DNA of 39,956 bases from Gammaproteobacteria bacterium (GTDB taxonomy: Bacteria; Pseudomonadota; Gammaproteobacteria; Steroidobacterales; Steroidobacteraceae). Below the pieces are notes generated by a model, which saw only the letters and a program-made list of their open reading frames with translations, had not been told where the DNA came from and did no database searches. Shown here piece by piece: positions 13,896 to 39,956 of the stretch; the first letter of the stretch is position 1; the number at the start of each line of letters is the position of its first letter. The DNA lies in assembly GCA_027307325.1 (NCBI GenBank), contig DAHUXE010000097.1, positions 1-39,956 on the forward strand. Direction: 5' to 3'. Position numbers and translations under genes: made by a program.

Positions 13896-16800
13896 CTAAG
13901 CCAGGTCCGCCAACACCGCCGGCACGTGGCGGCGCAGCAGCCTGTTACGGGCCTCCCACTGCTCGGCGGGGGATAGCTCCATGAGGAACTCTACCTCGCC
14001 ACCGGCCAGCAGCGCGACCGGCACGCCGTCGCGGTACAGGACGCGGTTGCCGGCCAGGGCGGGCAGCCGGGCGCCGGGCGTGATGATCCCGACGAGATTC
14101 AGGGGATCCGAACCCGACAGCGAGACGTGATGCCCCTCGCGGGGCTTGCGCCGCGCCTCGCGCAGCAGCCCGATCGCCTCCGGTGCCGCGTACTGTTCCC
14201 CGGTGACCGAGGCGACGAAACGCCCGCCGCGGATCTCCCCGCGTGCCTCGAGCCGCCGGCAGCACGTGAGCAGATCGCGCCAGGGCGGCAGCCAGTCGGC
14301 CTCGCGGGCCAGCAGCCGCCAGAACACCACTCCCCAGCGCTTCAGCAGCGTGCGCACCACGTGTTCGATGAGCTCATCCTCGCGCGCACGACCCGGCGCG
14401 GGCCGGATCGCGGGGCTCTCGCGCGCGCTGCGCGCCCAGCGTCCTGCGGCATCCATGCCGAAGAGGGCGATGCGCCGGCGGCGGCGGCCGCCCGCGGCCG
14501 GCCGGCGTCTGTCCGAGGGCACGAGCAGCGCCCGCAGTCCCGCGAAGCTGTCGGAATTGACGAGACCGAGCGCGACCAGCTCCGCGAGCGCCTCCTCGGC
14601 CTGCGAGGGGAGCAGGCTCGTGCCGCTCGCGAGCTCATCGAAGAAGGACGCGCCGTGGCTCGCAAGGTAGTCCGCCACACGGGCGGCCGGCGCGCTCAAG
14701 TGCGCCGGTGCCGCCGGGTCCGCGAGTGCCGACCAGAGCCGCAGGTTGCGCCGCGCGAGCAGCACGATCGGCGTGGCGCGCACCGGCGCGGCGCGGCGCT
14801 CGGGATCGGCGCGGCGTGAGCCGATCCGCGTCCACACGAAGCGTCCGGCGAGGCATTGCTCATCGAGCCAGGCCGGCTCGTACTCGCCGATGCGTTCGGG
14901 GAGGATCTCGGTCTCCCAGGCGCTGGCGGCGGCTTCGAAGCCCTCGAGCTGCGCGAGGATCGCGCCGACCGCGTCCGGTCCCTCCATGCGCCCCGCAGGC
15001 GTCACGCGCTGCCACTCGAATAGGAACCGCAGGAAATCGCGCGCTTCGATCGGCTCGATCTCGGCGCGCAGCCGCTTGACGGTGTAGCGGTGCACGCGGG
15101 CGAGCAGGCGCCGTTCGCACCACTCGCTGCCGCGGGCAACTTGCGCTTGGGGTGGTGCGGCGGTTGCGGAGTGCTGCAGCCCGACCCGCTCGAGCGTGCC
15201 CGCCGGCGCCTCGGGCGTGAAGAGGCCCCGCATCGCGAAGCCCTCGGCCTCGAGCGCGAGCAGCGCCGCGTCGATTCTCGCGACCGGGAGACCCGCGAGC
15301 GCGGCCAGTGCCGGGGCGGTCACCGGTCCCGAGCCCGTGAGCCGGCCGCGCAGCACCTCGATGAGCGCAGCCTCGGGACTCAGCTCACGCGCGTGCGCGG
15401 CGGGCGTCACCACCTGCGGGTCACGCCCCGCCGCCGGGTAGAGCGCGCCGAAGAGCGGCAGCTGCTCGGCCGTTACCCACAGCTCCACGCCCTCCGCCAC
15501 CGTGATGCGCGTCACCCGCCGCTCGCCGGCCAGCTCCGTCATGAGCTGCGGCCAGCCGTCGTGTCGGGCGACCTCGGCGGCCGTGAGGAAGGTCAGCCAC
15601 AGCAGCGCATCGTGCAGCTCGTCGGCGTTCGTGGCGTCGGGCCAGGCCTCGGCGCGCACGCGCGCGATCGCCTCCGGGTCGAGCCCACCTAAGTCGGCGG
15701 CGCTTTGCGGATCGAGCCAGCGCCGGCTCATGACGGCCTGCGTGCGCCGCTCCTCGAGCGGGGCGTCGTCGAGGAAAGCGTACGGCCGCGCGGACAGCAC
15801 CTCGAGCGCGAGCGGCGAGGGCTCGGTCAGGTCGCGGGCGAGCGAACGGACGCTGCCCGCTTCGAGTGCGCGCAGCAGCCGCTCGAGCCCGTCGATGTCC
15901 ATCGCCTCCTCGAGGCAGTCGCGGATCGCCTGGCGCACCAGCGGGTGATCGGGAATCTCGAGCTCGCCGGTGAGATTCTCCGCGCACGCCACCTGGTCGG
16001 GAAACACCGACGCGAGCAGATCCTCGGCCGCCATGCGCTGCAGCGGCGCGGGCACCTTCTTGCCGCCGCGAAAGCGCGGCAGGGCGAGCGCGACGCTCGC
16101 GCTCCAGCGCCAGCGCACCGGAAACATCGGCGCCGCGCACAGCGCCTGCACCAGCAGCGGGCGCACCGTGTTGGAATTGTGGTAGCGGACCACGTCCGCG
16201 AGCTCGAAGCTGTGCGCGGTAGTGAGGGACAGCACGATCGTGTCCTCGGTGGCCGCGGCCTGCAGCTCGAAGTTGAAGGAGCGGCAGAAGCGCTTGCGCA
16301 GCGCGAGGCCCCAGGCGCGGTTGATGCGGCTGCCGAACGGGGAGTGGATCACGAGCTGCATGCCGCCCGCTTCGTCGAAGAAGCGCTCGAAGATCACCAG
16401 CTCCTGCGTGGGTACGGCGCCGAGCGCGGCGCGCGCCGCGGCGAGGTAGTTGGTGATCTGCACCGCCGCGGGCGCGCCGATGCCGCTCTCGGCCACCAGC
16501 CAGGCGGTGGCGGCCTCCGCGCCCTCATCGAGCTGCGCCTCGAGCCCGCGCCGCAGCCGCGAGACGCTCGCCGAGAGCTCGTCGGTCCGTCCCGGAGCCT
16601 CGCCGATCCAGAAGGGAATGCTGGGCGGTTCGCCGCGTGCGTCCTCGACCCGGATACGGCCCGGCTCGACCCGCAGAATGCGGTACGAGACGTTGCCGAG
16701 CTGGAAGATGTCACCCTGCAGGCTCTCGATCGCGAAGTCCTCGTTGACCGTGCCGACGAACTGCGCCTGCGGCTCGAGCAGCACCTGGTAGTCGGCGGTG

Positions 16801-18302
16801 TCGGGAATGGTGCCGCCGGAGGTGAGGGCGGTGAGCCGGGCGCCGCGCCGGCCCTTGATGCGGTGGTTGACCCCATCGTGGTGCAGCAGGGCACCGTGGC
16901 GGCCGCGGCGCGTGCTGTAGCCCTCGGCCAGCATGCGCACCACCTCGTCGAACTCGCTGCGCGTGAGATCGCGGTAGGGATACGCGCGGGTGACGAGCGC
17001 GTAGAGACCATCCTCCTCCCACTCGCGCGCTGCCGCCTCCGCCACGATCTGCTGCGCCAGCACGTCGAGCGGCCTGGCCGGCACCGTCAGCCGGTCGAGC
17101 TCCCCGCGGCGCACCGCCGCGAGCAGCGCCGCGCACTCCACCAGGTCGTCGCGCGACAGCGGGAAGAGGCGCGCCTTCGGCGTGCCGCCCAGCGAGTGGC
17201 CGGAGCGGCCGGCACGCTGCAGGAAGGCGGCGATCGAACGCGGCGAGGCGAGCTGGCATACGAGGTCGATCTCGCCGATGTCGATGCCGAGCTCCAGAGA
17301 TGCGGTCGCGACCAGGGCGCGCAGCTCGCCCCTCTTCAGGCGCTTCTCGGCATCGAGCCGCGACTCCTTTGCCATGCTGCCGTGATGCGCGGCGACATGC
17401 TGCTCGCCGAGGCGCTCCGACAGGTGGCGCGCGATGCGCTCGGACTGGCGGCGCGTGTTGACGAACACCAAAGTGGTGCGGTGCTCGCTCACGAGCTCGG
17501 CGAGGCGGTCGTAGATCTCCTTCCAGACATCGCCCGACATCACCGACTCGAGCGGCGCGGAGGGGATCTCGAGCTGCAGATCGCGATCGCGCACGTGGCC
17601 GGTGTCGACGACGGTGCAGTCGGGGTTGCCGTCGGCAAGCTCCCCGCCCGTACCGACCAGGAAGCGCGCCACCTCGGCGATCGGCTTTTGCGTGGCCGAC
17701 AGCCCGACGCGCGTCAGGCGCCGTGCGGCGAGCGCCTCGAGCCGCTCGAGGGGGAGGGCGAGGTGCACGCCGCGCTTGGTTCCCGCCATGGCGTGGATCT
17801 CGTCCACGATGACGGTGCGCGTGCTCGCGAGCATCTTCCGGCCGGACTCCGAGCCCATGAGAATGTAGAGCGACTCGGGGGTCGTCACCACGATGTGCGG
17901 CGGGTGTTTGCGCATTGCGGCGCGCTCGTGCTGCGGCGTGTCGCCGGTACGTACGAAGGTGCGGATGCCGTGCTCGGGTAGCCCGAGCGCGGTGAGCTCC
18001 GCGGCGATGCCGGCGAGCGGTGCCTCGAGATTGCGGTGGATGTCGTTGGAGAGCGCCTTGAGCGGCGAGACATACACCACGCGCGTCTCGTCGGCGAGGC
18101 CGTTCGACTCGATCCCGGCGCGCACCAGCTCGTCGATGACCGCGAGAAAGGCGGCGAGCGTCTTGCCCGAGCCGGTCGGGGCCGCGATCAACACATGGCG
18201 CCCGGCCGCGATCGCCGGCCACGCCGCGGCCTGCGCCGGGGTTGCGGCGTCAAAACTTCGGGCGAACCAGCCGGTGACGGACGGATGGAAGGCGGCGGGC
18301 AT
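13896..18302 (-). CDS. lhr: Lhr-type superfamily 2 DNA helicase
   Basis: Large helicase of 1468 residues, close to full-length Lhr (about 1.5 k residues). Motifs visible include Q-motif region [19 protein letters not shown], Walker A APTGSGKT (41-48), DEIH (motif II), LSAT (motif III) and QRAGRSGH (motif VI). The long Lhr-specific winged-helix and C-terminal domains follow; their start includes [23 protein letters not shown]. Lhr proteins translocate 3' to 5' on DNA and are linked to repair. I chose ATG 18302 because the helicase homology ([13 protein letters not shown]) begins right after it. An ATG at 18359 is an in-frame alternative; neither has a clear ribosome site. The gene is divergent from the DUF3014 gene. 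Confidence 0.95.
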
Positions 18303-18424
18303 GCGGGCATTGAAGCACACCGCGCCGCGTGCGAGGAGATGTGGGAGCGGCGAATTCATGCAACGTACAGCGTGTAGCGCGAACCGCACCTGTATGCGCG
18401 TGGTCAGCCAAAGGGGAGTAGAGT

Positions 18425-18448
18425 TCACGACTGACCGGTTTGTCGTGA
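18425..18448. promoter_or_regulatory. Inverted repeat upstream of the DUF3014 gene
   Basis: TCACGAC (18425-18431) and GTCGTGA (18442-18448) form a perfect 7-bp inverted repeat with a 10-base spacer. It ends 12 bases before the DUF3014 start, in the divergent region shared with lhr. The centre-to-centre distance of 17 bases suits a dimeric regulator; no regulator can be named. Confidence 0.3.
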
Positions 18449-18460
18449 GGGCGTGACGCG

Positions 18461-19270
18461 ATGTGGGAAGAAGAGACTGCGGATTCATTCCGCCGCAAAC
18501 TCCTCTGGTGGATCGGTGGCCTGGTGGTGGTCGCGGCCGCGGGATTCGCCCTCTGGTACCGGTTCCTGTTCCATCCGGCGGAAACCACTCCGCCCGTCGC
18601 CGCCGTGCAGCCCGCCGCTCCGCCGGCTGCTGCCCAGCCGGCGGTCGCGAACCCTATGCCGGCCGCAGCCGCTGGATCCGAGGCGCTGCCGGCGCTCAAC
18701 GACAGCGACCCGCTGGTCCACGAGTCGCTGACGGGCGTGTTGGGACACCCGACGATCGAGGCGCTGCTCGTGCCGCAGAACATCGTGCGGCACATCGTGG
18801 TGACGGTGGACAACCTGCCGCGCCACAAGGTTGCCGTGGAGCTGCGGCCGGTGAAGCCGACCACCGGGCAGACGGTGGTGTCCACCGAGGGCGACCTCAC
18901 GGTGCTGAGCGAAGCCAACTTCGAGCGCTACAAGCCCTTGGTGCGCGCCGTGCAGGCCGCCGACGTCAAGGCGCTGGCCGCGCTCTACCAGCGGCTCTAT
19001 CCGCTGTTCCAGCAGGCCTACGAGGATCTCGGTTACCCGGGCAAGTATTTCAACGACCGGCTGGTCGAGGTGATCGATCACCTGCTCGAGACGCCGGAGG
19101 TCGCTGCTCCCATCCAGCTGGAGCAGCCGCGGGTGTTCTACACATTCGCCGATGCCGGGCTCGAGGGGCGCTCGGCCGGACAGAAGCTGCTGATCCGCAT
19201 GGGGCCGGCGAACGCGCGCGTCATCAAGGCGAAGCTGCGCGAGTTCCGCGCAGAGATTGCGAAGAAATAG
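18461..19270 (+). CDS. DUF3014 family membrane-anchored protein
   Basis: Protein of 269 residues with one transmembrane helix (about 14-34, [20 protein letters not shown]). A Pro/Ala-rich linker follows (about 42-75), then a conserved DUF3014-type globular domain. Its typical segments are [71 protein letters not shown] and [25 protein letters not shown]. The topology suggests a periplasmic domain anchored in the inner membrane. The family has no established function. ATG at 18461 is preceded by only a weak GAGGG. It lies 22 bases upstream of the PH-SHOCT gene and may be cotranscribed with it. Confidence 0.88.
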
Positions 19271-20436: not shown

Positions 20437-21357
20437 GTGAGAATCCGCGTACTGGGCTCGGCCGCCGGCGGCGGCTTTCCCCAGTGGAACTGCAATTGCC
20501 GTAACTGCGCGGGCGCACGTAACGGCACGGTGCGTGCCGCGCCGAGGACGCAATCCTCGATCGCCGTCGCCGGCACCGACGCGGCCGCGTGGGCACTCGT
20601 CAATGCCTCCCCCGACATCCTCGCGCAGCTGCGGGTGCACTCCGACCTGCAGCCGGCGCGCGCGCCGCGCGACTCGAGGCTGGCGGGCATCGTGCTGGTC
20701 GACGCCCAGATCGACCACACCGTCGGACTCTTCATGCTGCGCGAGTCCACGGCGCCGCTCGCCGTCTGGTGCACCGACGCGGCGTACGCCGACCTGACCG
20801 GCGGCAATCCGATCTTCAGCGTGCTCGGGTCTTACTGCGGCATCGAGCGGCACCGCATGGGCAGCTCGGGCGAGGAGTTCGCGCTCGACCGCGTCCCCGG
20901 CGTGCGCTGGCGGGCGATCGCGGTGGCGGGCAAGCCCGCGCCTTACTCGCCGCACCGCAGCGCACCGGTCCGCGGGGACAACGTCGCGCTCGTGATCAGC
21001 GATGCCGCGAGCGGCAAGGCCGCGGTCTATGCACCCGGCGTCGGGGCGATCGAGCCCGCCCTGTGGAGCGCACTCGAGGGGTCCGCGTGCGTGCTCATCG
21101 ACGGTACCTTCTGGAGCGATGAGGAGATGGTGGCGCAGGGCCTCGCCGCCAAGCGCGCCCGCGACCTCGGCCATTTGCCCCAGAGCGGCGCCGGCGGCAT
21201 GCTCGAGTGGCTGCAGCGGCTGCCGCGCGCGACGCGCAAGATCCTCATCCACGTGAACAACACCAATCCGATCCTGGACGAAGACTCGCCCGAGCGCGCC
21301 GCACTCGCGAGCGCCGGTGTCGAGGTCGCCTGCGACGGGATGGAGATCACGCTGTGA
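20437..21357 (+). CDS. pqqB: PqqB, PQQ biosynthesis protein
   Basis: Metallo-beta-lactamase-fold protein of 306 residues, the usual PqqB length. The N-terminus [23 protein letters not shown] carries the family's CxCxxC zinc site. Later landmarks are [24 protein letters not shown] and HVNNTNPIL. PqqB acts in the late cytosolic steps, and has been shown to act as a hydroxylase on a tyrosine-derived intermediate before PqqC. The start is GTG at 20437; the nearby ATG at 20430 is out of frame. The 3' end overlaps pqqC by four bases (GTGA). Confidence 0.96.
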
Positions 21358-22052
21358 GCGAGGCCGCCTGGACGCGCGCCGAGTTCGAGTCGCGGCTGCG
21401 CGAGCACGGGCGCGCCTACCACATCCACCACCCGTTCAACGTCATGCTCAATTCCGGCAAGGCGACACGCGAGCAGATCCGCGGCTGGGTGGCGAACCGC
21501 TTCTACTACCAGATCAACATTCCGCTGAAGGATGCCGCGATCCTCGCCAACTGCGAGGAGCGTGCGGTGCGCCGCCACTGGGTGCAGCGCATCCTCGACC
21601 ACGACGGCTGCGGCGACGACCCGGGCGGCATCGAGTCCTGGTTGCGGCTCGCCGCGGCGGTCGGGCTTCCGGGCGCCGAGGTGGAGAGCCTCGCGCTGCT
21701 GCTCCCCGGAGTGCGCTTCGCGGTCGACGCCTACGTCAACTTCGCGCGCCGCGCGCCCTGGCCGGAAGCGGTGTGCGCCTCGCTCACGGAGCTCTTTGCG
21801 CCGGAGATCCATCGCCAGCGCCTCGCCGGCTGGCCGCAGCACTATCCGTGGATCGATGCGGCGGGCCTCAGCTACTTCCAGGCGCGCATCGGCCGCGCGC
21901 AGCGCGACGTCGAGTTCGCGCTCGCCGTGACGCTGGAGCGTTTCGACACGCGCGCGGCGCAGGAGCGCGCTCTCGAGGTCCTCAAGTTCAAGCTCGACAT
22001 CCTCTGGCAGATGAACGATGCGATGGCGCTCGCCTACGGAGTGACGCAGTGA
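21354..22052 (+). CDS. pqqC: PqqC, pyrroloquinoline-quinone synthase
   Basis: Cofactor-less oxidase of 232 residues that performs the final ring closure and eight-electron oxidation of AHQQ to PQQ. Family landmarks are [15 protein letters not shown] (substrate His), [35 protein letters not shown] (the Tyr/Arg pair of the active site) and [15 protein letters not shown] (Lys near the C-terminus). The start is a GTG inside the pqqB stop. The TGA overlaps the pqqD GTG. It is cytosolic and expected to be produced stoichiometrically with PqqB and PqqD through coupling. Confidence 0.97.
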
Positions 22053-22327
22053 GCGCCGTGAGCGCAGCCGCGCGGCCGGCGATCGCGCACGGCATGCGGC
22101 TGCAATGGGAGCCGGCACAGGAGGCGCACGTGCTGCTCTACCCGGAGGGAATGGTGAAGCTGAACGGCAGCGCCGGCGCGATCCTCGCGCGCTGCGACGG
22201 GGTGCGCACCGTGGCGGAGATCGTCGCGGACCTCGAGCGGACTTTCGGCGCCGCCGATCTCACCGCCGATGTCACGGCGTTCGTCGAGCTCGCGCTCGAG
22301 CGCCGCTGGCTGGAGCTGCGGGAGTGA
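22049..22327 (+). CDS. pqqD: PqqD, PqqA peptide chaperone
   Basis: Small RiPP-recognition protein of 92 residues, matching standalone PqqD. Typical segments are [41 protein letters not shown] and ERRWLELR near the C-terminus. PqqD binds PqqA and presents it to the radical-SAM enzyme PqqE. Here pqqE is not adjacent but lies 6 kb downstream with its own pqqA. GTG start overlaps pqqC by four bases. A 46-base gap separates it from the deformylase gene. Confidence 0.94.
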
Positions 22328-28374: not shown

Positions 28375-29517
28375 ATGACCACCGCGCAGAGTGTCGGCCC
28401 GCCCCTCTGGCTGCTGCTGGAGCTGACCTACCGCTGCCCGCTGCACTGTGTGTTCTGCTACAACCCGACTGAGTTCGCCGCCACTGGCGCGGAGCTGCCG
28501 ACCGGGGAGTGGCTGCGGGTGCTGCGCGAGGCGCGCTCGCTCGGGGCGGTGCAGCTCGGGCTCTCGGGCGGGGAGCCGCTGGTCCGCGAGGATCTCGAGC
28601 CGATCGTCGCCGAGGCGCATGCGCTCGGTTTCTATACGAATCTGATCACCTCGGGCGTCGGCATGACCGAGGAGCGCATCCGCGCACTCAAGGCCGCGGG
28701 GCTCGACCACATCCAGCTGTCCTTCCAGGACAGCACCCGCGAGCTGAATGATTTCCTCTCGAGTACCCGCACCTTCGACCTCAAGGCGAAGGTGGCCGAG
28801 CTCATCCGCCGCTACGACTACCCCATGGTGCTCAACGTGGTCCTGCACCGGCTCAACATCGACCACGTCGGCGAGATCCTCGGGCTGGCCGAGTCTCTCG
28901 GCGCGCAGTACGTCGAGCTCGCCAACACGCAGTACTACGGCTGGGCCTGGCTCAACCGCGCGCACCTGCTGCCGAGCCGCGCCCAGCTCGAGCGCGCCGA
29001 GGAGGTCACGCGCGCCTTTCGCGCGCGGGTGGCCTCGAAGATGCAGATCTACTTCGTGGTGCCCGACTACTTCGAGACGCGCCCCAAGGCGTGCATGAGC
29101 GGCCTCGGGAGCATCTTCCTCGCCGTCACGCCCGACGGCACGGCGCTGCCCTGTCATGCCGCGCGGATGCTCCCGGGGCTCGAGTTTCCCAATGTGCGCC
29201 AGCACGGCTTGCGCACCATCTGGTACGAGTCGCCGGCGTTCAATCATTTCCGCGGCGACGCCTGGATGAAAGAGCCGTGCCGCAGCTGCCCGGAGAAAGC
29301 GCGTGACTTCGGCGGCTGTCGCTGCCAGGCATACCTCCTGACGGGCGATCCCGCCAATGCCGACCCGGTGTGCGATCTCTCCCCGCACCATGGGCTGGTG
29401 ACGGCGGCGGTGGCGCGCGCCGAGCGCGCGGTAGCGGATGGCGGCAGGGGGCCCGCGGCGCCGCTCGTGTTCCGCGATCACCGCGTGTCGATACCAGTCG
29501 TCGTGGAGGGCCGATGA
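28375..29517 (+). CDS. pqqE: PqqE, radical SAM PqqA cross-linking enzyme
   Basis: Radical-SAM SPASM enzyme of 380 residues that forms the carbon-carbon bond between Glu and Tyr of PqqA. The SAM-cluster motif CPLHCVFC has Cys21, Cys25 and Cys28. [13 protein letters not shown] is the GGEP SAM-binding motif. The C-terminal SPASM region has the expected cysteines ([29 protein letters not shown] and a last Cys in PVCDLS) for two auxiliary iron-sulfur clusters. ATG 28375 matches the family start. The gene is separated from pqqBCD by 6 kb but has a private pqqA. Its stop overlaps fghA (ATGA). Confidence 0.97.
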
Positions 29518-30362
29518 GCCTCGAGACCATCAGCGAGCACCGCAGCTTCGGTGGCCTGCAGGGCTTCTACCGGCACGAGTCCGCGGTGACGGATACCTCG
29601 ATGCGCTTTGCCGTGTATCAGCCGCCGCAGGCGCAGCAGCAGGGTGTGCCGGTGCTGTTCTACCTCGCCGGTCTCACCTGCACCGAAGAGACCTTCGCGA
29701 TCAAGGCCGGCGCGCAGCGCGTGGCGGCGCAGCTCGGGCTGATGCTCGTGACCTGCGACACCAGCCCGCGCCAGACCGGTATCGCGGGGGAGGCGGACGA
29801 CTGGGAATTCGGCAGCGGCGCGGGCTTCTATCTCAATGCGACGCAGGCGCCGTGGTCGCGTTACTTCCGCATGTACGACTACGTGCTCACCGAGCTGCGC
29901 GAGACGGTGCTCGCGCATTTCCCCGCCGCGCCGCGCCGCTTGGGTGTCTTCGGGCACTCCATGGGCGGTCATGGCGCGCTGGTGCTGGCGCTGCGCAATC
30001 CGGACGTGTACCGCTCGGTGTCGGCGTTCGCGCCGATCTGCGCGCCGAGCCGCTGCCCGTGGGGAATGAAGGCCTTCAGCCGTTACCTCGGCGAGGAGCG
30101 TGCCGCCTGGGCGGACTACGACACGGTGGAGTTGCTCAAGGCGCGGCGCGCACGCGCCTACGCCGAGATCCTGGTGGATCAGGGACTGGCCGACAAGTTC
30201 CTGCCGCAGGGTCAGCTGTTGCCGGAGCTGCTCGAGTCGGCGTGCGCGCAGGCGGGCCAGCCCCTGCGGCTGCGGCGTCACGAGAGCTACGGTCACGACT
30301 ATTACTTCATCGCCACCTTCATGGAGGATCACCTGCGCTTCCATGCTGACGCGCTCTCCTAA
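29514..30362 (+). CDS. fghA: S-formylglutathione hydrolase
   Basis: Cytosolic esterase-D-type hydrolase of 282 residues, the family's normal length. It converts S-formylglutathione to formate and glutathione. Landmarks are [13 protein letters not shown], the nucleophile elbow GHSMGG with Ser149, the acid in [11 protein letters not shown] and the catalytic His in [12 protein letters not shown] overlaps the pqqE stop by four bases, so the last step of formaldehyde oxidation is coupled to PQQ synthesis. The preceding steps (Gfa and the dehydrogenase) are encoded at 38.6-40 kb. A short stem (30377-30389) follows the gene without a U-tract. Confidence 0.96.
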
Positions 30363-32490: not shown

Positions 32491-34341
32491 ATGCGATTCC
32501 AACGCGAGAAGGCTACATACGCTCTGATCGCCGCGCTGGCATTGGGAGCGTCCACGGCGGCCGGTGACGAGGCCAACGATCCGAATCGCTGGACCTCCCC
32601 GGGCGGCGACTACTCCCTGACGCGGCACAGCTCGCTGAAGGACATCAACACCTCCAACGCGAGCCAGCTGCAGATGGTGTGGTCGCAGTCGAGCGGCACG
32701 CTGCGCGGCCACGAGGGCCAGCCCCTGGTGCTCGACATCAACGGCAAGCCGATGATGTTCATGGAGAGCGGATGGCCGAACATCATCCAGGCGCTCGATC
32801 TGAGCGACCCGGATCATCCCAAGGAGGTGTGGAACTACCGTAAGACGAGCAACCGCGATGAATCGGCGGTGGCGCGTGCCTGCTGCGACACGGTGAACCG
32901 CGGCATGTCCTACGCGGACGGCAAGCTCGTCTTCGGCACCCTCGACGGCTACGTGATCGCGCTCGATGCGGCGACCGGCAAGGAGGACTGGACCGTCAAG
33001 CAGGCCTGGCCGGACAAGGGCGAGACCATCACGCCCGCACCGCTGATCGCCGACGGCAAGGTGCTCATCGGCTTCGGCGGCGACGAGTTCGGCGCCCGCG
33101 GCCGCTTCGACGCCTACAATCTCGCCGACGGCTCCAAGGTGTGGGAGTGCTTCAACACCGGCAGCGACAAGGACGTGTGTCTGACCAAGGAGACCAACAA
33201 GAATCATAAGAATTACGGCACCGCCGGGCACGACCTCGGCATCTCCAGCTTCCCGGGTGACGAGTGGAAGCGCGGCGGCGGCGCGATGTGGGGCTGGTAC
33301 AGCTACGATCCGGAGCTGAAGCTCGTGTACGCCTCGAGCGGCAACCCGGGGCTGTGGAGCCCGTCCTACCGTTGCGGTGCGCAGCCGATCAGTCAGCAGG
33401 GCTGCAACGACGGCAAGTGGGACAACAAGTGGTCGATGACGATCTTCGCGCGCAAGGTCGACACCGGCGAAGTCGTGTGGGCGTACCAGATGACGCCGTT
33501 CGATCAGTGGGACTACGACGGCATCAACGAGAACATGCTGGAGAACCTCAACGTCGACGGCAAGGAACGCAAGGTACTGATTCACTTCGACCGTAACGGC
33601 TTTGCGTATGTGCTGGATCGCACCGACGGGACGCTGCTGCGTGCCCACAAATACGTGACCGTGAACTGGGCCGAGAAGGTCGACCTGAAGACCGGCGTTC
33701 CGGTGAAGGTGTACGAGCACTCCCCGCTCAAGGTGCACGAGAATACCCAGGCGTGTCCGTCGGCGATGGGCGGCAAGGATCAGCAGCCGTGCGCGATCGA
33801 CCCGAACGAGCCCGGCATGGCCTATTGTCCGACCAACAACTGGTGCATGGAGGATGAGCCGCAGGAGCGCACCCACACGCAGCAGGGCGTGGTGTACGTG
33901 TTCGCGAACGTCTTCATGTACCCGGAGAAGCCGGGCATCACCGGCAAGTTCAAGAAGTTCAACGTCCTCACCGGCGAGACCGTATGGGAGATTCCGGATC
34001 CGTATCCGAACTGGGGCGGCGCCCTGGTCACGGACGGCGGACTGGCCTTCTACGGCAGCCTGAACGGTGACTTCCGCGCGGTGGATCGCAGCACGGGTCG
34101 GGTGCTGTGGCAGAGGCGCCTCGGGTCGGGAATCATCGGCAACCCGATCACCTACCGGGTCAACGGCAAGCAGTATGTCTCCGTGTGGAGCGGGATCGGC
34201 GGCTGGATCGGGCTGCCCGTCACGGCAGGGCTCGACCTGAACGACAAGTTCGGCGCCATCGGCGCCACGGCCATGACCAAGGCAGCGGGACTCAGCATGA
34301 TTCCGCAGGGTGGCACGCTCTATACTTTTGCCGTGCAATAA
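32491..34341 (+). CDS. xoxF: XoxF, lanthanide-dependent PQQ methanol/alcohol dehydrogenase
   Basis: Periplasmic quinoprotein of 616 residues with a signal peptide (TYALIAALALGASTAAG). The eight-bladed propeller carries the vicinal disulfide Cys131-Cys132 (ARACCDTVNRG) that contacts PQQ. The active-site segment is FDQWDYDG with catalytic Asp341 and, two residues on, Asp343; that second Asp is the extra lanthanide ligand, replaced by Ala in calcium-dependent MxaF. Several tryptophan-docking repeats (YVIALDAATGKEDW, FRAVDRSTGRVLWQ) are visible. TGAGGAG at 32477-32483 sets the start. The genes that follow encode the usual XoxJ and XoxG partners. Methanol is the likely substrate; ethanol or other short alcohols are also possible. 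Confidence 0.96.
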   Translation: MRFQREKATYALIAALALGASTAAGDEANDPNRWTSPGGDYSLTRHSSLKDINTSNASQLQMVWSQSSGTLRGHEGQPLVLDINGKPMMFMESGWPNIIQALDLSDPDHPKEVWNYRKTSNRDESAVARACCDTVNRGMSYADGKLVFGTLDGYVIALDAATGKEDWTVKQAWPDKGETITPAPLIADGKVLIGFGGDEFGARGRFDAYNLADGSKVWECFNTGSDKDVCLTKETNKNHKNYGTAGHDLGISSFPGDEWKRGGGAMWGWYSYDPELKLVYASSGNPGLWSPSYRCGAQPISQQGCNDGKWDNKWSMTIFARKVDTGEVVWAYQMTPFDQWDYDGINENMLENLNVDGKERKVLIHFDRNGFAYVLDRTDGTLLRAHKYVTVNWAEKVDLKTGVPVKVYEHSPLKVHENTQACPSAMGGKDQQPCAIDPNEPGMAYCPTNNWCMEDEPQERTHTQQGVVYVFANVFMYPEKPGITGKFKKFNVLTGETVWEIPDPYPNWGGALVTDGGLAFYGSLNGDFRAVDRSTGRVLWQRRLGSGIIGNPITYRVNGKQYVSVWSGIGGWIGLPVTAGLDLNDKFGAIGATAMTKAAGLSMIPQGGTLYTFAVQ

Positions 34342-34433: not shown

Positions 34434-36050
34434 ATGCAGGCCTGGACCAGGGCAGGGCCATCGCTGCGGGCAGCGCTGGCCATCGCGGTGGTGACGCTCG
34501 CCGCACTCCCGGGCGGTGCGCAGGCAGCGCTGCGTGTGTGCGCCGACCCGGGCAACATGCCCCTGTCCAACGACCACGGCGAGGGTCTCGAGAACAAGAT
34601 GGCCGCCGTGCTGGCGCGTGCACTAGGCACGACGGTGGAGAACTATTACCGTCCTGGAGTCGAGCGCGGACTCACGCGTACCACCCTGTACGCCGATCAG
34701 TGCGACGTCATGTTCGACATGCCGCCCGACTCTGAAGACGTCGCCACCACGGGTCCCTTGTACCGCTCGACCTTCGTGCTGGTGTACCGCAGCGATCGCG
34801 GCTTGACGTTCAAGGACCTCGACGATCCGCGCCTCAAGAAGCTGAGGGTGGGGGTATACGAGACCTCGGCGGTGCGCGAGGCGCTGCTCGAGCACGGGGT
34901 GGTGCGCAACATCGTCATACACTCTCTCAGCCACGACGCCGACCTGGTTCCGGAGGATCAGCCGAGCTACCAGGTGCAGCAGGTCATCGACGGCAAGCTG
35001 GACGTGGCCGCTGCCTGGGGGCCGATGGCGGGTTACTACAGCGCCGTGCGGCACGCGCCGCTCGTCGTCCAGCCGGTCAATCTGATGGATGACGAGACGC
35101 CGCTCGAATTCGACATGGCGATCGGCGTGCGGCGCAGCGATCACGAGCTGCAGCGGCGCCTCGAGCAGGTGATGCGCGAGCAACGCGACGCGCTGCACGC
35201 CATCCTCACCGAGTACGGTGTGCCGCTGGTGAAGTGCGACACCTGCCTGATCAGCGGCGATCTGCCCGCGCACGGACCGTATGCGCCGCCCAGGTCCGGC
35301 TCCGCGCCCAAGGGCCCGCCGGTGAGCATCGCGCAGCTCGATGACTGGCTCGCGCACGGCGCGAATGTCGGCGTCGAGCTCAACAACGCGGTGATGGCGG
35401 ACGACGCAGCGCGCGTCAGCTACCTCGTCGAGAAGAAGCACGCCGCGGTCGGTGCCCTGGACCTGCAGGGCGAGACCCCGTTGCACCATGCGCTGATCGA
35501 GCGTTCCGCCCCGATGGTGAATTACCTGATCGCCCATGGAGCGGATGTCAACCAGCGCGACCGCGACGGCTGGACGCCGCTTATGACTGCGGCCTATTAC
35601 GACCAGCCCGACGCGGTCAGGACTCTGGTCGCGCACGGCGCCGACGCGAACGCCCGCAGCGCCCAGAACCTGACGCCGCTCGGCATCGCCGTGCAGTACA
35701 CCAAGAACGATGCCGCGCTCGCGCTGGTCGAAGCAGGGGCCGACCCGCAGCGCGCGGTGGGCGAGGCCGGCTATACGCCGCTGATGCTTGCGACCCGCAA
35801 CGGAGCGGAGGCGGTGGTGCAGGCGCTGATCGGCAAGGGTGCCGATCTGAACGCCCGCAACAGCGGCGGCGTCACGGCGCTGATGATCGCGGCCGCGGAC
35901 GGCAACGCAGCCATGGTCGAGCTGCTGGTGCGCGCGGGTGCCGACAGGCGCGCGCGCAGCGAGCGTGGCGACACCGCGCTGTCGATCGCGCGCACGCGCG
36001 GCGATGAGCGAGTGATCAGACTGCTGGATGAGGGGCGTCCGGGGGCCTAG
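34434..36050 (+). CDS. xoxJ: XoxJ-like periplasmic binding protein fused to ankyrin repeats
   Basis: Protein of 538 residues, far longer than normal XoxJ/MoxJ (about 270-300). A signal peptide (LAIAVVTLAALPGGAQA) is followed by a substrate-binding-protein domain (about 33-275) of the quinoprotein-dehydrogenase-associated family: LRVCADPGNMPLSNDHGEGLENKMA, then LRVGVYETSAV and AAAWGPMAGYYS. After a Pro/Gly-rich linker (about 278-300), five to six ankyrin repeats run from about residue 345 to the end (TPLHHALIERSAPMVNYLIAHGADVN, TPLMTAAYYDQPDAVRTLVAHGADAN, TPLMLATRNGAEAVVQALIGKGADLN, TALMIAAADGNAAMVELLVRAGADRR). XoxJ is thought to help activate XoxF. GAGGAG at 34419-34424 supports the ATG. Confidence 0.9.
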   Translation: MQAWTRAGPSLRAALAIAVVTLAALPGGAQAALRVCADPGNMPLSNDHGEGLENKMAAVLARALGTTVENYYRPGVERGLTRTTLYADQCDVMFDMPPDSEDVATTGPLYRSTFVLVYRSDRGLTFKDLDDPRLKKLRVGVYETSAVREALLEHGVVRNIVIHSLSHDADLVPEDQPSYQVQQVIDGKLDVAAAWGPMAGYYSAVRHAPLVVQPVNLMDDETPLEFDMAIGVRRSDHELQRRLEQVMREQRDALHAILTEYGVPLVKCDTCLISGDLPAHGPYAPPRSGSAPKGPPVSIAQLDDWLAHGANVGVELNNAVMADDAARVSYLVEKKHAAVGALDLQGETPLHHALIERSAPMVNYLIAHGADVNQRDRDGWTPLMTAAYYDQPDAVRTLVAHGADANARSAQNLTPLGIAVQYTKNDAALALVEAGADPQRAVGEAGYTPLMLATRNGAEAVVQALIGKGADLNARNSGGVTALMIAAADGNAAMVELLVRAGADRRARSERGDTALSIARTRGDERVIRLLDEGRPGA

Positions 36051-36053
36051 CAG

Positions 36054-36575
36054 GTGCGACGGAGTGCTTTGATCCTATGCGTGGCAGGAGCGATCGGGTC
36101 ACTGATCTGCGCCGGACGCCTGAACGGGGCGGAGCCAGCGGCCGCTCCCGCGGCGGCCGCCGAGGCGGCCATGACACCGGTGCAGCGGGCCGACTCGGCG
36201 CCCAAGGGCACGCTCAAGAATCCCTATGCCGACACCGACGCCGCGGTGGTCGCCGAGGGCAACAGGCTGTTCATGAGCTACGCCTGCAGCGGCTGCCACG
36301 GCGGTACCGGCGGCGGGGGCATGTGCCCGCCGGTGACCAACGATATCTGGGTATATGGCGGCGACGACGACACCCTCTTCAGGCTGGTGGCTTACGGCAG
36401 CCAGGATCTGCAGGCCAAGGGCTACAGCCGCAAGGGACAGGAGAATGTCGTCGCGCCGATGCCGGCGATGGGGGGGATCGTGAAGACCGATGACGATCTG
36501 TGGCGCATCCTGGCGTTCGTGCGAGCCAACTATCACGGCTCGCCGGAATGCAAGTACGGCTGCACGGCCGACTAG
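36054..36575 (+). CDS. xoxG: XoxG-type cytochrome c, electron acceptor of XoxF
   Basis: Periplasmic c-type cytochrome of 173 residues. A signal peptide (ALILCVAGAIGSLICAG) and an Ala/Pro-rich stretch precede the single haem-binding motif CSGCH (Cys78, Cys81, His82). Met in VAPMPAMGG is the probable sixth ligand. Segments GNRLFMSYACSGCHGGTGGGGMCPP and DDLWRILAFVRANY fit the cytochrome cL/XoxG family, which takes electrons from methanol dehydrogenase. The C-terminus adds a CKYGC pair. The start is GTG at 36054, three bases after the xoxJ stop; the Shine-Dalgarno sequence is a poor GGGGG. It should be cotranslated with xoxJ. Confidence 0.92.
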   Translation: MRRSALILCVAGAIGSLICAGRLNGAEPAAAPAAAAEAAMTPVQRADSAPKGTLKNPYADTDAAVVAEGNRLFMSYACSGCHGGTGGGGMCPPVTNDIWVYGGDDDTLFRLVAYGSQDLQAKGYSRKGQENVVAPMPAMGGIVKTDDDLWRILAFVRANYHGSPECKYGCTAD

Positions 36576-36608: not shown

Positions 36609-38597
36609 ATGATGCGCTCGCGATCCATGCCTCATAGTCATGCGGAGCTGATCGGGACCCTGGTGCGCCGTCGCGGGCTCGAGCCGCCGATCCCCGAGGT
36701 CGTGCGCAGCTCCTGGAGCCGCTGTCTCGACAGTTACGCGCTCGATCCGGCGGAGCTGCGCCGGCCCAGCAGTGTCGGGGCTGCCGACCTGGAAGCCCGG
36801 CGCGCGCGCCTCGGGGTGCTGCCGAGGGTCGCGCGCTTCGAGATGGAGGCACTCGGCAAGCTCATCGAGCACTCCGAGTACAGCATCATGCTGACCGATC
36901 GCGACGGCGTGATCCTGAGCTACATCGGCGACACGGGCTTCTCGGCGACCGCGCGGCGCTGCGGCTTCCGCGAAGGCGTCATGTGGGGCGAGCCGGAGAT
37001 GGGTACCAACGGCATGGGGACCTGTCTCATCGCGCGCCGCTCGGTAGTGATCCACCGCATGGACCACTTCCTCGCCCAGAACACGCAGCTCACCTGTTCC
37101 GCCACACCGATCTTCGACATGCGCGGCGAGGTGCTCGCCGCGCTCGACATCTCCGGCGCCTCGTTCAATCCGCAGAGCCACACGCTCGCGCTGGTCGAGA
37201 TGGCCGCGCAGAACGTGGAAAACCGCACTCTGCTCTCCGCCTGCCGCGACATGCACATCGTGCGTTTCCACCGCTGTGCGGAGTTCGTGAGCACTCCTGG
37301 TGAGGGTGTGCTGGCGTTCGACGACCAGGGCGTGATCATGGGCGCGAACCGCGCCGCGCTCGCGCTCCTCGGCCGGCGCGATCACGGCGCGGTGTGCGGG
37401 CAGCCTGTCGATCGCCTGCTCGACACCAGCATCGGGAGCCTGCTGAGCCTCGCGGGTGAGCGCAGCTTCCCGGCGGAGGCGCTCAATTGCCAGACGAGCG
37501 AGCGGCGCTGGTTCGCCGCGGTGCACGCGCCAGCCAGGCCGCCGCGGCGCACGCAGGTCGCGGTGGGGGCGAACGTGGCGGAAGCCGCCCGGTCCGGCGC
37601 GGCCCGGGCCTCGCTCGCATGCCTGCAGTCGGGCGATCCGCTCATGACGCAGAACGTGGAGGTGCTGCAGCGGGTGCTCGATTGCGACATCTCCGTGCTG
37701 CTGCTCGGTGAGACCGGCACCGGCAAGGGCTATTGCGCGCGCGCCGTGCACGCCGCCAGCAACCGCGCCGATAAGCCCTTCGTCACCGTCAACTGCGCGG
37801 CCATCCCGGAGGCGCTGATCGAGAGCGAGCTGTTCGGGCACAAGCCCGGGGCCTTCACCGGCGCCACCCGCGAAGGCGGCCTGGGCCGGATCCTGCAGGC
37901 CAATGGCGGCACTCTGTTCCTCGATGAGATCGGCGACATGCCGGTGGTGCTGCAGTCGCGCCTGCTGAACGTCATCGAGGATCGCGAAGTGATGCCGCTC
38001 GGCGGCAACAAGGTGGTGAGCGTCGACGTGCGCATCATCAGCGCCACGCAGCACAACCCGCTCGACATGATCGCCGCGGGTCAGTTCCGTGACGATCTGT
38101 ACTACCGGCTGAACGGCATCACGGTGCGACTGCCGGCGCTGCGGCAGCGGACCGACGGCGCCGAGCTCATGCGCAAGCTGGTGTCGGGCGAAGCCGGGTC
38201 AGGGCCGCCGGTCGAGATCGAGCCGGCGCTCATCGAGCGGCTGCTGCGGCACCCGTGGCCGGGAAACGTCCGGCAGCTGCGCAACGTGCTGCGCACCATG
38301 CTGGCGCTGCGCAGCGGCGAGCGTCTCACGCTCGCGGATTTCAACGAGGAGTGGCTGGCGTACGGCGCGACCGAGCAGCCGCCGCACGAGTCGGAGCAAG
38401 CCTGCGGCGACCGCGATGATGTGCTGGGCGGGGCGGAGCGCGAGGCGCTGCGCCGTGTGCTCGAGTTCTGTCAATGGAACGTCAGCGCAGCCGCGGCCCG
38501 ACTGCACATCAGCCGCCGCACCATATATCGCAAGATTCACAGGCATGGGCTGCTGCGGCACGCTCCGCAGCTCGGAGCGGGCTGCAGGCCCGAGTGA
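36609..38597 (+). CDS. AcoR-type sigma-54-dependent transcriptional activator
   Basis: Enhancer-binding protein of 662 residues. An N-terminal GAF sensor (about 75-220, [34 protein letters not shown]) is followed by a PAS-like region (about 225-330). The AAA+ domain has Walker A GETGTGKG (367-374), the sigma-54 contact loop GAFTGA (414-419), Walker B LFLDEIGD and [11 protein letters not shown] Fis-type helix-turn-helix ends it ([21 protein letters not shown]). Walker A ends in Gly where most relatives have Glu. GGGAGGAG (36594-36601) precedes ATG 36609. Relatives respond to acetoin, alcohols or aldehydes bound by GAF. It probably activates the -24/-12 promoter at 30555. Confidence 0.94.
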
Positions 38598-38622: not shown

Positions 38623-39198
38623 ATGGCGACACTCAACATCCATCCGCTGGTAGACCACGGAGTCAAGAAGGGCACCCCCGGCTTTGCCGGCGGCACGCTC
38701 ACCTGCAAGTGCACACGCGAGCCGGTGACGGTGCGCGTCGCTGCCAACGTGGCTTTCAATCACGTGTGCGGCTGCACCAAGTGCTGGAAGCCCACCGGGG
38801 CGCTGTTCTCGCTGGTCGGCGTTGCCGGGCGCGACAAAGTGTCGGTGACCGCGAACGCCGGCAAGCTCAGGATCGTCGATGACAAGGCCCCGATTCAGCG
38901 CCATGCCTGCAGCGGCTGCGGTGTGCACATGTACGGTCGCATCGAGAACCAGAACCATCCCATCTACGGCTTCGACTTCTTCCATATCGAGCTATCGAAG
39001 GAGAGCGGCTGGGAGGAGCCGCGATTCGCGGCCTTCGTCTCATCGATCATCGAAGCGGGATTTCCGCCGGCGCGCATGGGCGAGGTCCGTGGGCGGCTCA
39101 GGGAGCTGAAGCTCGAGCCGTATGACTGCCTGTCGCCGGAGCTGATGGACCTGATTGCGACCCACTCCGCCAAGGCCAAGGGTGTACTGGCGTCGTAG
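38623..39198 (+). CDS. gfa: Gfa, S-(hydroxymethyl)glutathione synthase
   Basis: Protein of 191 residues matching glutathione-dependent formaldehyde-activating enzyme. Zinc-site cysteines are Cys28 and Cys30 ([10 protein letters not shown]), Cys49, Cys51 and Cys54 ([17 protein letters not shown]), and Cys96 and Cys99 ([14 protein letters not shown]). The C-terminal part is typical ([30 protein letters not shown]). It speeds the condensation of formaldehyde with glutathione, giving the substrate of the next enzyme. The ATG follows the activator stop by 25 bases. The dehydrogenase starts 26 bases downstream, so the two form one unit. Confidence 0.96.
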
Positions 39199-39224: not shown

Positions 39225-39956
39225 ATGAAGACACGCGCTGCGATCGCGTACGCGGCCGGCAAGCCGCTCGAGATCACGACCGTCGAGCTCGCGGGCCCCA
39301 GGGCGGGCGAGGTGCTGGTGGAACTGAAGGCCACCGGGATCTGCCACACGGACGAGTTCACGCGCTCGGGCGCCGACCCCGAGGGGCTGTTTCCCGTGAT
39401 CTTCGGCCACGAGGGAGCCGGCATCGTGGTCGAAACGGGGCCGGGTGTGACTTCGGTGAAGAAGGGCGATCACGTGATCCCGCTGTACACGCCCGAGTGC
39501 CGCCAGTGCAAGAGCTGCCTGTCGAGGAAGACCAACCTGTGCACCGCAATCCGTGCCACCCAGGGCAAGGGCGTGATGCCCGACGGCACCAGCCGCTTCT
39601 CGCTCGGCAGCCAGATGGTGCATCACTACATGGGGTGCTCGACGTTCTCGAATTTCACGGTGCTGCCGGAAATCGCGCTGGCCAGGATCCGCGAGGACGC
39701 GCCGTTCGAGAAAGTCTGCTACATCGGCTGTGGCGTCACGACCGGGATCGGCGCCGTCATCAACACCGCCAGAGTCGAGGCCGGGGCGAACGCCGTGGTC
39801 TTCGGCCTGGGCGGCATCGGGCTCAACGTCATCCAGGGACTGCGCCTGGTCGGCGCCAACAGGATCATCGGCGTCGACACAAATCCGCGCCGCAAGGCGC
39901 TCGCGGAAGCGTTCGGCATGACGCACTTCGTGAACCCGAAGGAGGCGGGCGGAGAG
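39225..39956 (+). CDS. frmA: S-(hydroxymethyl)glutathione dehydrogenase (class III ADH), 3' end outside window
   Basis: First 244 codons of a zinc alcohol dehydrogenase; the frame is open to the last base of the window (full family length about 370). Catalytic-zinc ligands Cys40 (GICHTDEF) and His62 (GHEGAG) are present, as are the structural-zinc cysteines 92, 95, 98 and 106 (ECRQCKSC ... TNLC). [14 protein letters not shown] and the Rossmann motif GLGGIGL follow, with Asp in [18 protein letters not shown] selecting NAD. It oxidises S-(hydroxymethyl)glutathione to S-formylglutathione, the substrate of FghA. GGAGG upstream (39212-39216) supports the ATG. Confidence 0.96.

Follow-up and report, generated by a model that had tools for sequence, protein, structure and literature searches.

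The closest described relatives of the protein considered here are XoxJ of Methylobacterium extorquens AM1 (PDB ID: 6onp) and MxaJ (PDB IDs: 5sv6; 9ism_B), which have a binding-protein fold and a place adjoining the dehydrogenase, and whose chains of 284–300 residues have neither a CxxC tail nor an ankyrin arm. A J domain can also be part of a larger protein in a XoxF system, as in cytochrome cGJ of Methylacidiphilum fumariolicum SolV, where it is fused to a cytochrome and serves XoxF2. An ankyrin-containing protein tied to the supply of an enzyme cofactor is Cj1386 of Campylobacter jejuni, which is not known to have a binding-protein domain. The available portion of its description places Cj1386 in the cytoplasm, where it supplies heme to catalase (PMC11442138). 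For M. extorquens, an excerpt of PMC7391723 reports that, on methanol with La, losing xoxJ has the same effect as losing XoxF, and a review, likewise available in part, proposes that XoxJ and MxaJ may bind the apo-enzyme in a partly folded state and so give PQQ and metal access (PMC12997753). A MxaF/MxaJ complex has been solved by cryo-EM, going by the title of the structure; no paper on it, from 2024 onward, was found in the open-access literature.

Here we compare these systems with a J protein encoded in the window, that is, the whole stretch of 39,956 nucleotides analysed, which comes from a gammaproteobacterial assembly of 199 contigs and 2.98 Mb. The gene, xoxJ-ANK, lies on the + strand at 34434–36050 and encodes 538 amino acids (J-ANK) in a single frame that starts with ATG, ends with TAG and contains no internal stop. 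A signal peptide called by eye (approximately residues 1–31; 34434–34526) is followed by a XoxJ/MxaJ-type binding domain (residues 32–266; 34527–35231), which scores 255.8 bits against TIGR03871, the model for XoxJ-like quinoprotein dehydrogenase-associated binding proteins (cut-off 212.15), and 119.9 bits against the MoxJ/MxaJ equivalog TIGR03870, below its cut-off of 258.1. The PQQ-dependent methanol dehydrogenase expected to adjoin members of TIGR03871 is present as xoxF at 32497–34341, and the nearest solved chains are XoxJ 6onp (E = 3.8e-35) and MxaJ 9ism_B (2.5e-25) and 5sv6 (8.6e-24). Beyond the binding domain come a tail with a conserved cysteine pair, C268 and C271 (residues 267–284; 35232–35285; pLDDT about 96), a flexible linker of low pLDDT and high entropy (residues 285–301; 35286–35336), and an ankyrin arm of seven helix pairs (residues 302–531; 35337–36026), in which the Pfam models Ank_2, Ank, Ank_3, Ank_4 and Ank_5 each score above cut-off between approximately residues 317 and 531.

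The AlphaFold2 model of J-ANK, built from a 73-row alignment, has a mean pLDDT of 91.8 and shows an MxaJ/XoxJ-like part, the ordered C268/C271 tail and then the seven ankyrin helix pairs; the linker region (residues 282–301, about 20 residues) is less certain, with pLDDT blocks of 69 and 79. The modest pTM of 0.62 would fit a tethered ankyrin arm, as far as the model goes. Foldseek ranks chains of MxaJ, XoxJ and ankyrin/DARPin proteins highest (1.3e-16 to about 1e-14). A first-pass annotation, made from the sequence alone, had proposed an unbroken fusion of a XoxJ-like binding domain to five or six ankyrin repeats. The frame is indeed intact, and separate profile searches recovered both parts above cut-off; the repeats are borne out by Pfam, AlphaFold2 and Foldseek, although their number had been put slightly low. 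J-ANK thus differs from XoxJ and MxaJ in having both tail and arm, from cGJ in that the J domain is joined to ankyrin repeats instead of a cytochrome, and from Cj1386 in being presumably periplasmic and in having a binding-protein domain.

The upstream xoxF (32497–34341, +; start codon putative) scores above the cut-off of TIGR03075. Directly downstream, at 36054–36575 (+), lies a c-type cytochrome that exceeds the Pfam cytochrome cut-offs and is XoxG by position only, its score against the MoxG model TIGR03872 being 44.7 bits (cut-off 147.8). It is followed by a sigma-54-dependent regulator with GAF, AAA+ and Fis-type HTH domains (36609–38597, +; Pfam above cut-off) and by S-(hydroxymethyl)glutathione synthase of formaldehyde detoxification (38626–39198, +; TIGR02820 above cut-off). 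The frame starting at 39225 resembles a zinc alcohol/formaldehyde dehydrogenase, and that at 29505–30362 an S-formylglutathione hydrolase. The contig also carries, some 10 kb away from the xox genes, PQQ biosynthesis genes (20437–22324), namely pqqB (20437–21354, +; TIGR02108, 386 bits, cut-off 245) and, beside it, a pqqD domain (within 21317–22324, +); a Lhr-type helicase frame of 1530 residues occupies 13896–18488 on the - strand. J-ANK is the only match to TIGR03871 in the source genome, which encodes, on a different contig, one further quinoprotein dehydrogenase with no J within 13 kb. Other long ankyrin-repeat frames occur in this genome (e.g. G000:C82:10415-11833), and these match J-ANK only in its ankyrin part.

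The best PDB relative of the window XoxF is 7o6z (859 bits), which we take to be XoxF1 of strain AP8, and the next is 4mae (576 bits). The window XoxF also carries the Asp preceding the metal-binding Glu, called diagnostic of XoxF1 (Asp172) in the accessible part of PMC8546591. Among 26 XoxF1-class rows this site is Asp in 20, Asn in 5 and Ser in 1, and it is Asp in none of 35 others, so that Asp is not a universal mark of XoxF1. Of the six Asn/Ser genes, three (L226, L223, L224) are immediately followed by a J, and the other three (L231, L233 and the first of the genes in L232) lack one in that position. In a tree of 101 XoxF rows the 28 XoxF1 rows form one side of one branch; this tree, like that of the J domain described below, is a quick one without bootstraps, and it carries a long-branch warning touching two Xanthomonas rows.

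To see how widely the fusion occurs, we scanned genome contigs with two peptide patterns, which were taken from the fused J and therefore bias the scan toward fused J proteins, and kept the best 80 of 138 relatives, giving 79 named loci. In all 79 the match extends into the ankyrin repeats; L073 is cut by the end of its contig, and the other 78 each read on, free of stops, for at least 450 residues counted from where the match begins. A long frame shared by 78 of 78 loci makes chance or assembly error very unlikely, and a one-off fusion, frameshift or chimera can be ruled out. The gene directly upstream is xoxF in 77 of the 79, the two exceptions (L063, L073) starting inside J; among seven loci of the window's own genus the figures are 5 of 7 for xoxF, the other two contigs again starting inside J, and 7 of 7 for a downstream cytochrome. 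These best 79 loci come from Gamma-, Beta- and Alphaproteobacteria, Verrucomicrobia and NC10, with record titles that include Methylotenera, Methylophilus, Methylophaga, Hyphomicrobium, Methyloceanibacter, Methylorubrum rhodinum, Methylomirabilis, Methylacidimicrobium, Solimonas, Hydrocarboniphaga and Xanthomonas.

Genomes of the Methylacidimicrobium type (L220-L222) have XoxF1 loci with the same J-ANK behind xoxF; the part of PMC8546591 available to us treats the XoxF1-type dehydrogenase of Methylacidimicrobium and not its J protein. The Xanthomonas loci (L126, L127, L130-L133, L135) show a XoxF1-type operon with J-ANK, a cytochrome and an alcohol-dehydrogenase-like gene, and methanol oxidation may hence occur in these plant-associated bacteria. 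An apparently longer fusion in L081 was discarded, its extra tail resembling the next gene by eye. There was no sign of J-ANK on viruses (four pattern stretches, none a relative) or on plasmids (three records at E 1e-40, with the J domain alone).

The pairing of the arm with XoxF1 was followed in 17 named genomes, chosen for holding a fusion, and in a phylum and a family set that were not so chosen. Dehydrogenases above 700 bits to the window XoxF were classed as XoxF1 and those at 390–520 bits as other XoxF/MxaF; rows below 390 bits were uncounted (16 of 76 in the named set, none with a J in the region). A J counted as near if it lay anywhere in the fetched region, about 6–7 kb either side (that of L255 is 5.9 kb off, on the opposite strand). 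The 17 named genomes hold 25 XoxF1 genes, 22 of them with a J in the region and three without (L231, L233, L243); all 22 J rows carry ankyrin repeats and represent 21 distinct proteins, one being common to a tandem xoxF pair. The same genomes hold 35 other XoxF/MxaF genes, 18 with a J, none of which has ankyrin repeats or extends more than 33 residues past the domain. The phylum sample (398 genomes, not selected by J; 40 of 62 match rows covered) gave the same picture, with J-ANK at both XoxF1 loci besides the window and at none of the 27 J-bearing loci among 38 others, where at most 34 residues follow the domain. Pooling the two sets, all 24 gene rows with a J near XoxF1 (23 distinct J proteins) show ankyrin repeats on it, against 0 of 45 with a J near other XoxF/MxaF, which rules out, for the samples examined, that J-ANK serves other XoxF types.

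In the family of the window (217 genomes), a by-eye comparison found J-ANK in all 34 genomes with a XoxF1 above 880 bits, directly behind xoxF in 31 and in pieces or on other contigs in 3, and no other J match at E 1e-30 or better runs past residue 295. Three genomes have J-ANK without XoxF1: in G009 and G092 the J stands at a contig end, and G196 has only a fragment. In a tree built from only the J domain, a single change accounts for the distribution of ankyrin (SH-aLRT 99; 24 fused rows including the window, 45 unfused), and the paired types likewise require one change on the XoxF tree. The first-pass annotation had treated the fusion as an isolated oddity, a view that must be given up: J-ANK is the form of XoxJ at every examined XoxF1-type locus that has a J, across several phyla.

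Two further features, the CxxC tail and the match to the XoxF1 type, had escaped that annotation. In an alignment of the window with 72 of the 78 loci (L073 excluded as cut by its contig; L081, L120, L125, L131, L132 and L133 omitted), C268 and C271 are both present without exception (73 of 73 fused rows), and not one of 45 unfused J proteins has a cysteine in its tail. A heme site can be ruled out, there being no CxxCH. XoxF1 proteins in turn have cysteine pairs of their own at 218/228, 293/303 and 432/444, seen in 0 of 35 other XoxF. Among 73 XoxF1 the pairs are present and absent in 58 and 15, 69 and 4, and 39 and 34 rows, respectively, with no half pairs; being kept or lost only as pairs, these cysteines behave like disulfides and are probably extra ones, as judged by their pattern in the alignment. 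A vicinal pair at 129/130 is present in 73 of 73. The four XoxF1 rows lacking 293/303 look verrucomicrobial by their residues, and as the J of each retains CxxC, strict coupling between these pairs and the tail does not hold.

We consider J-ANK a maturation or activation partner of XoxF1 whose ankyrin arm forms a second docking surface on the enzyme, a reading to which we give a probability of roughly 0.5. Its first half rests on the loss of xoxJ in M. extorquens, the apo-enzyme proposal and the MxaF/MxaJ complex. In the periplasm, the J domain would bind XoxF1 in its immature or apo form and help to load PQQ and lanthanide, as proposed for XoxJ and MxaJ, while the tethered arm would dock on XoxF1 and hold or select this dehydrogenase during maturation. 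Docking of the arm on XoxF1 is supported by the exclusive pairing in the samples tested (24 of 24 against 0 of 45, 34 of 34 family genomes, xoxF upstream in 77 of 79) and by the single change on each of the two trees. Counting against it, the ankyrin contact positions are variable, with no conserved patch standing out at the usual ones, the covariation described below is small, unfused J proteins seem to manage without an arm, and the XoxF1 genes of L231, L233 and L243 have no J in the fetched region.

The first-pass annotation had left XoxF, XoxG or another protein as possible docking partners of the repeats during metal or PQQ loading; its architecture and XoxJ assignment hold, and linkage and covariation now favour XoxF over XoxG, if weakly. 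An arm docking the cytochrome would keep the electron acceptor, XoxF1 and J together, and in 63 of 78 loci a cytochrome gene does lie no more than 2.5 kb beyond J-ANK. However, 13 of the other 15 have more than 4 kb of downstream sequence with no cytochrome in it and yet retain xoxF and J-ANK, and in 12 of the 13 a purpose-built profile finds none anywhere in the fetched locus, L100 having a weak one upstream. Loci with xoxF1 and J-ANK and no nearby cytochrome by profile include L081, L091, L095, L096, L101-L103, L114, L116, L117 and L124, and are mostly from Hyphomicrobium and Methyloceanibacter. Partial correlations of distances across 40 loci, thinned from 56 and with distances that are non-independent, agree: that between ankyrin and XoxF is 0.165 (2 of 500 permutations as high; jackknife 0.09–0.21) and that between ankyrin and cytochrome about 0 (255 of 500; jackknife -0.03 to 0.03), although cytochrome and J domain do show covariation (0.23). 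We therefore regard docking on XoxG as unlikely. A nearly neutral arm, carried along or merely adding stability since one fusion event, would agree with the single origin on the J tree and with the divergence of the ankyrin part, the greatest of those compared (mean distances: ankyrin 1.09, J domain 0.75, XoxF 0.38), but across several phyla the arm is never lost, either in the 24 XoxF1-linked rows or in the 34 family genomes, and this is the least probable of the readings weighed here. Anchoring of J to some other partner, such as an outer-membrane or PQQ/lanthanide transport protein or the membrane, could be suggested by pqqB within the window and by a PQQ-associated protein (TIGR03866) after J-ANK in L100; in the part of the loci looked at, no such gene is constant beside J-ANK, and we think this very improbable.

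The cysteines of XoxF1 invite a bolder reading, in which tail and arm act as an oxidative-folding device, the arm holding XoxF1 while CxxC makes or reshuffles its disulfides. The restriction of CxxC to fused J (73 of 73 against 0 of 45) and the both-or-neither behaviour of the XoxF1 pairs speak for it, whereas J has no thioredoxin fold, CxxC persists where 293/303 is missing, and the ordered tail of the model equally fits a plain structural disulfide; we hold it to be quite unlikely. The same doubt attaches to its fullest form, a chaperone dedicated to XoxF1 in which the arm would clamp the immature enzyme, CxxC help to form the vicinal and extra disulfides and the J domain open the enzyme for PQQ and lanthanide. 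If true, the assembly code would differ from one XoxF type to the next.

Each of the components (J proteins, ankyrin repeats, XoxF1) is already known; in the open-access literature we found no description of them as a constant arrangement, of its limitation to XoxF1 or of the CxxC tail. Open-access papers that name xoxF and ankyrin together mention ankyrin, in the portions available, in unrelated contexts. The type-specific arm, as far as sequence comparison reaches, points to a separate way of assembling or activating XoxF1, likewise without a description found there. It makes an ankyrin arm a fixed component of a periplasmic oxidation system, and J-ANK a means of spotting XoxF1 operons in genomes and a lead toward producing XoxF1 enzymes in other hosts. 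A J subfamily that in these samples goes only with XoxF1 also offers a natural experiment, by domain deletion and domain swap, on how J recognizes and activates its enzyme, and so bears on the role of XoxJ and MxaJ, a question in lanthanide biology.
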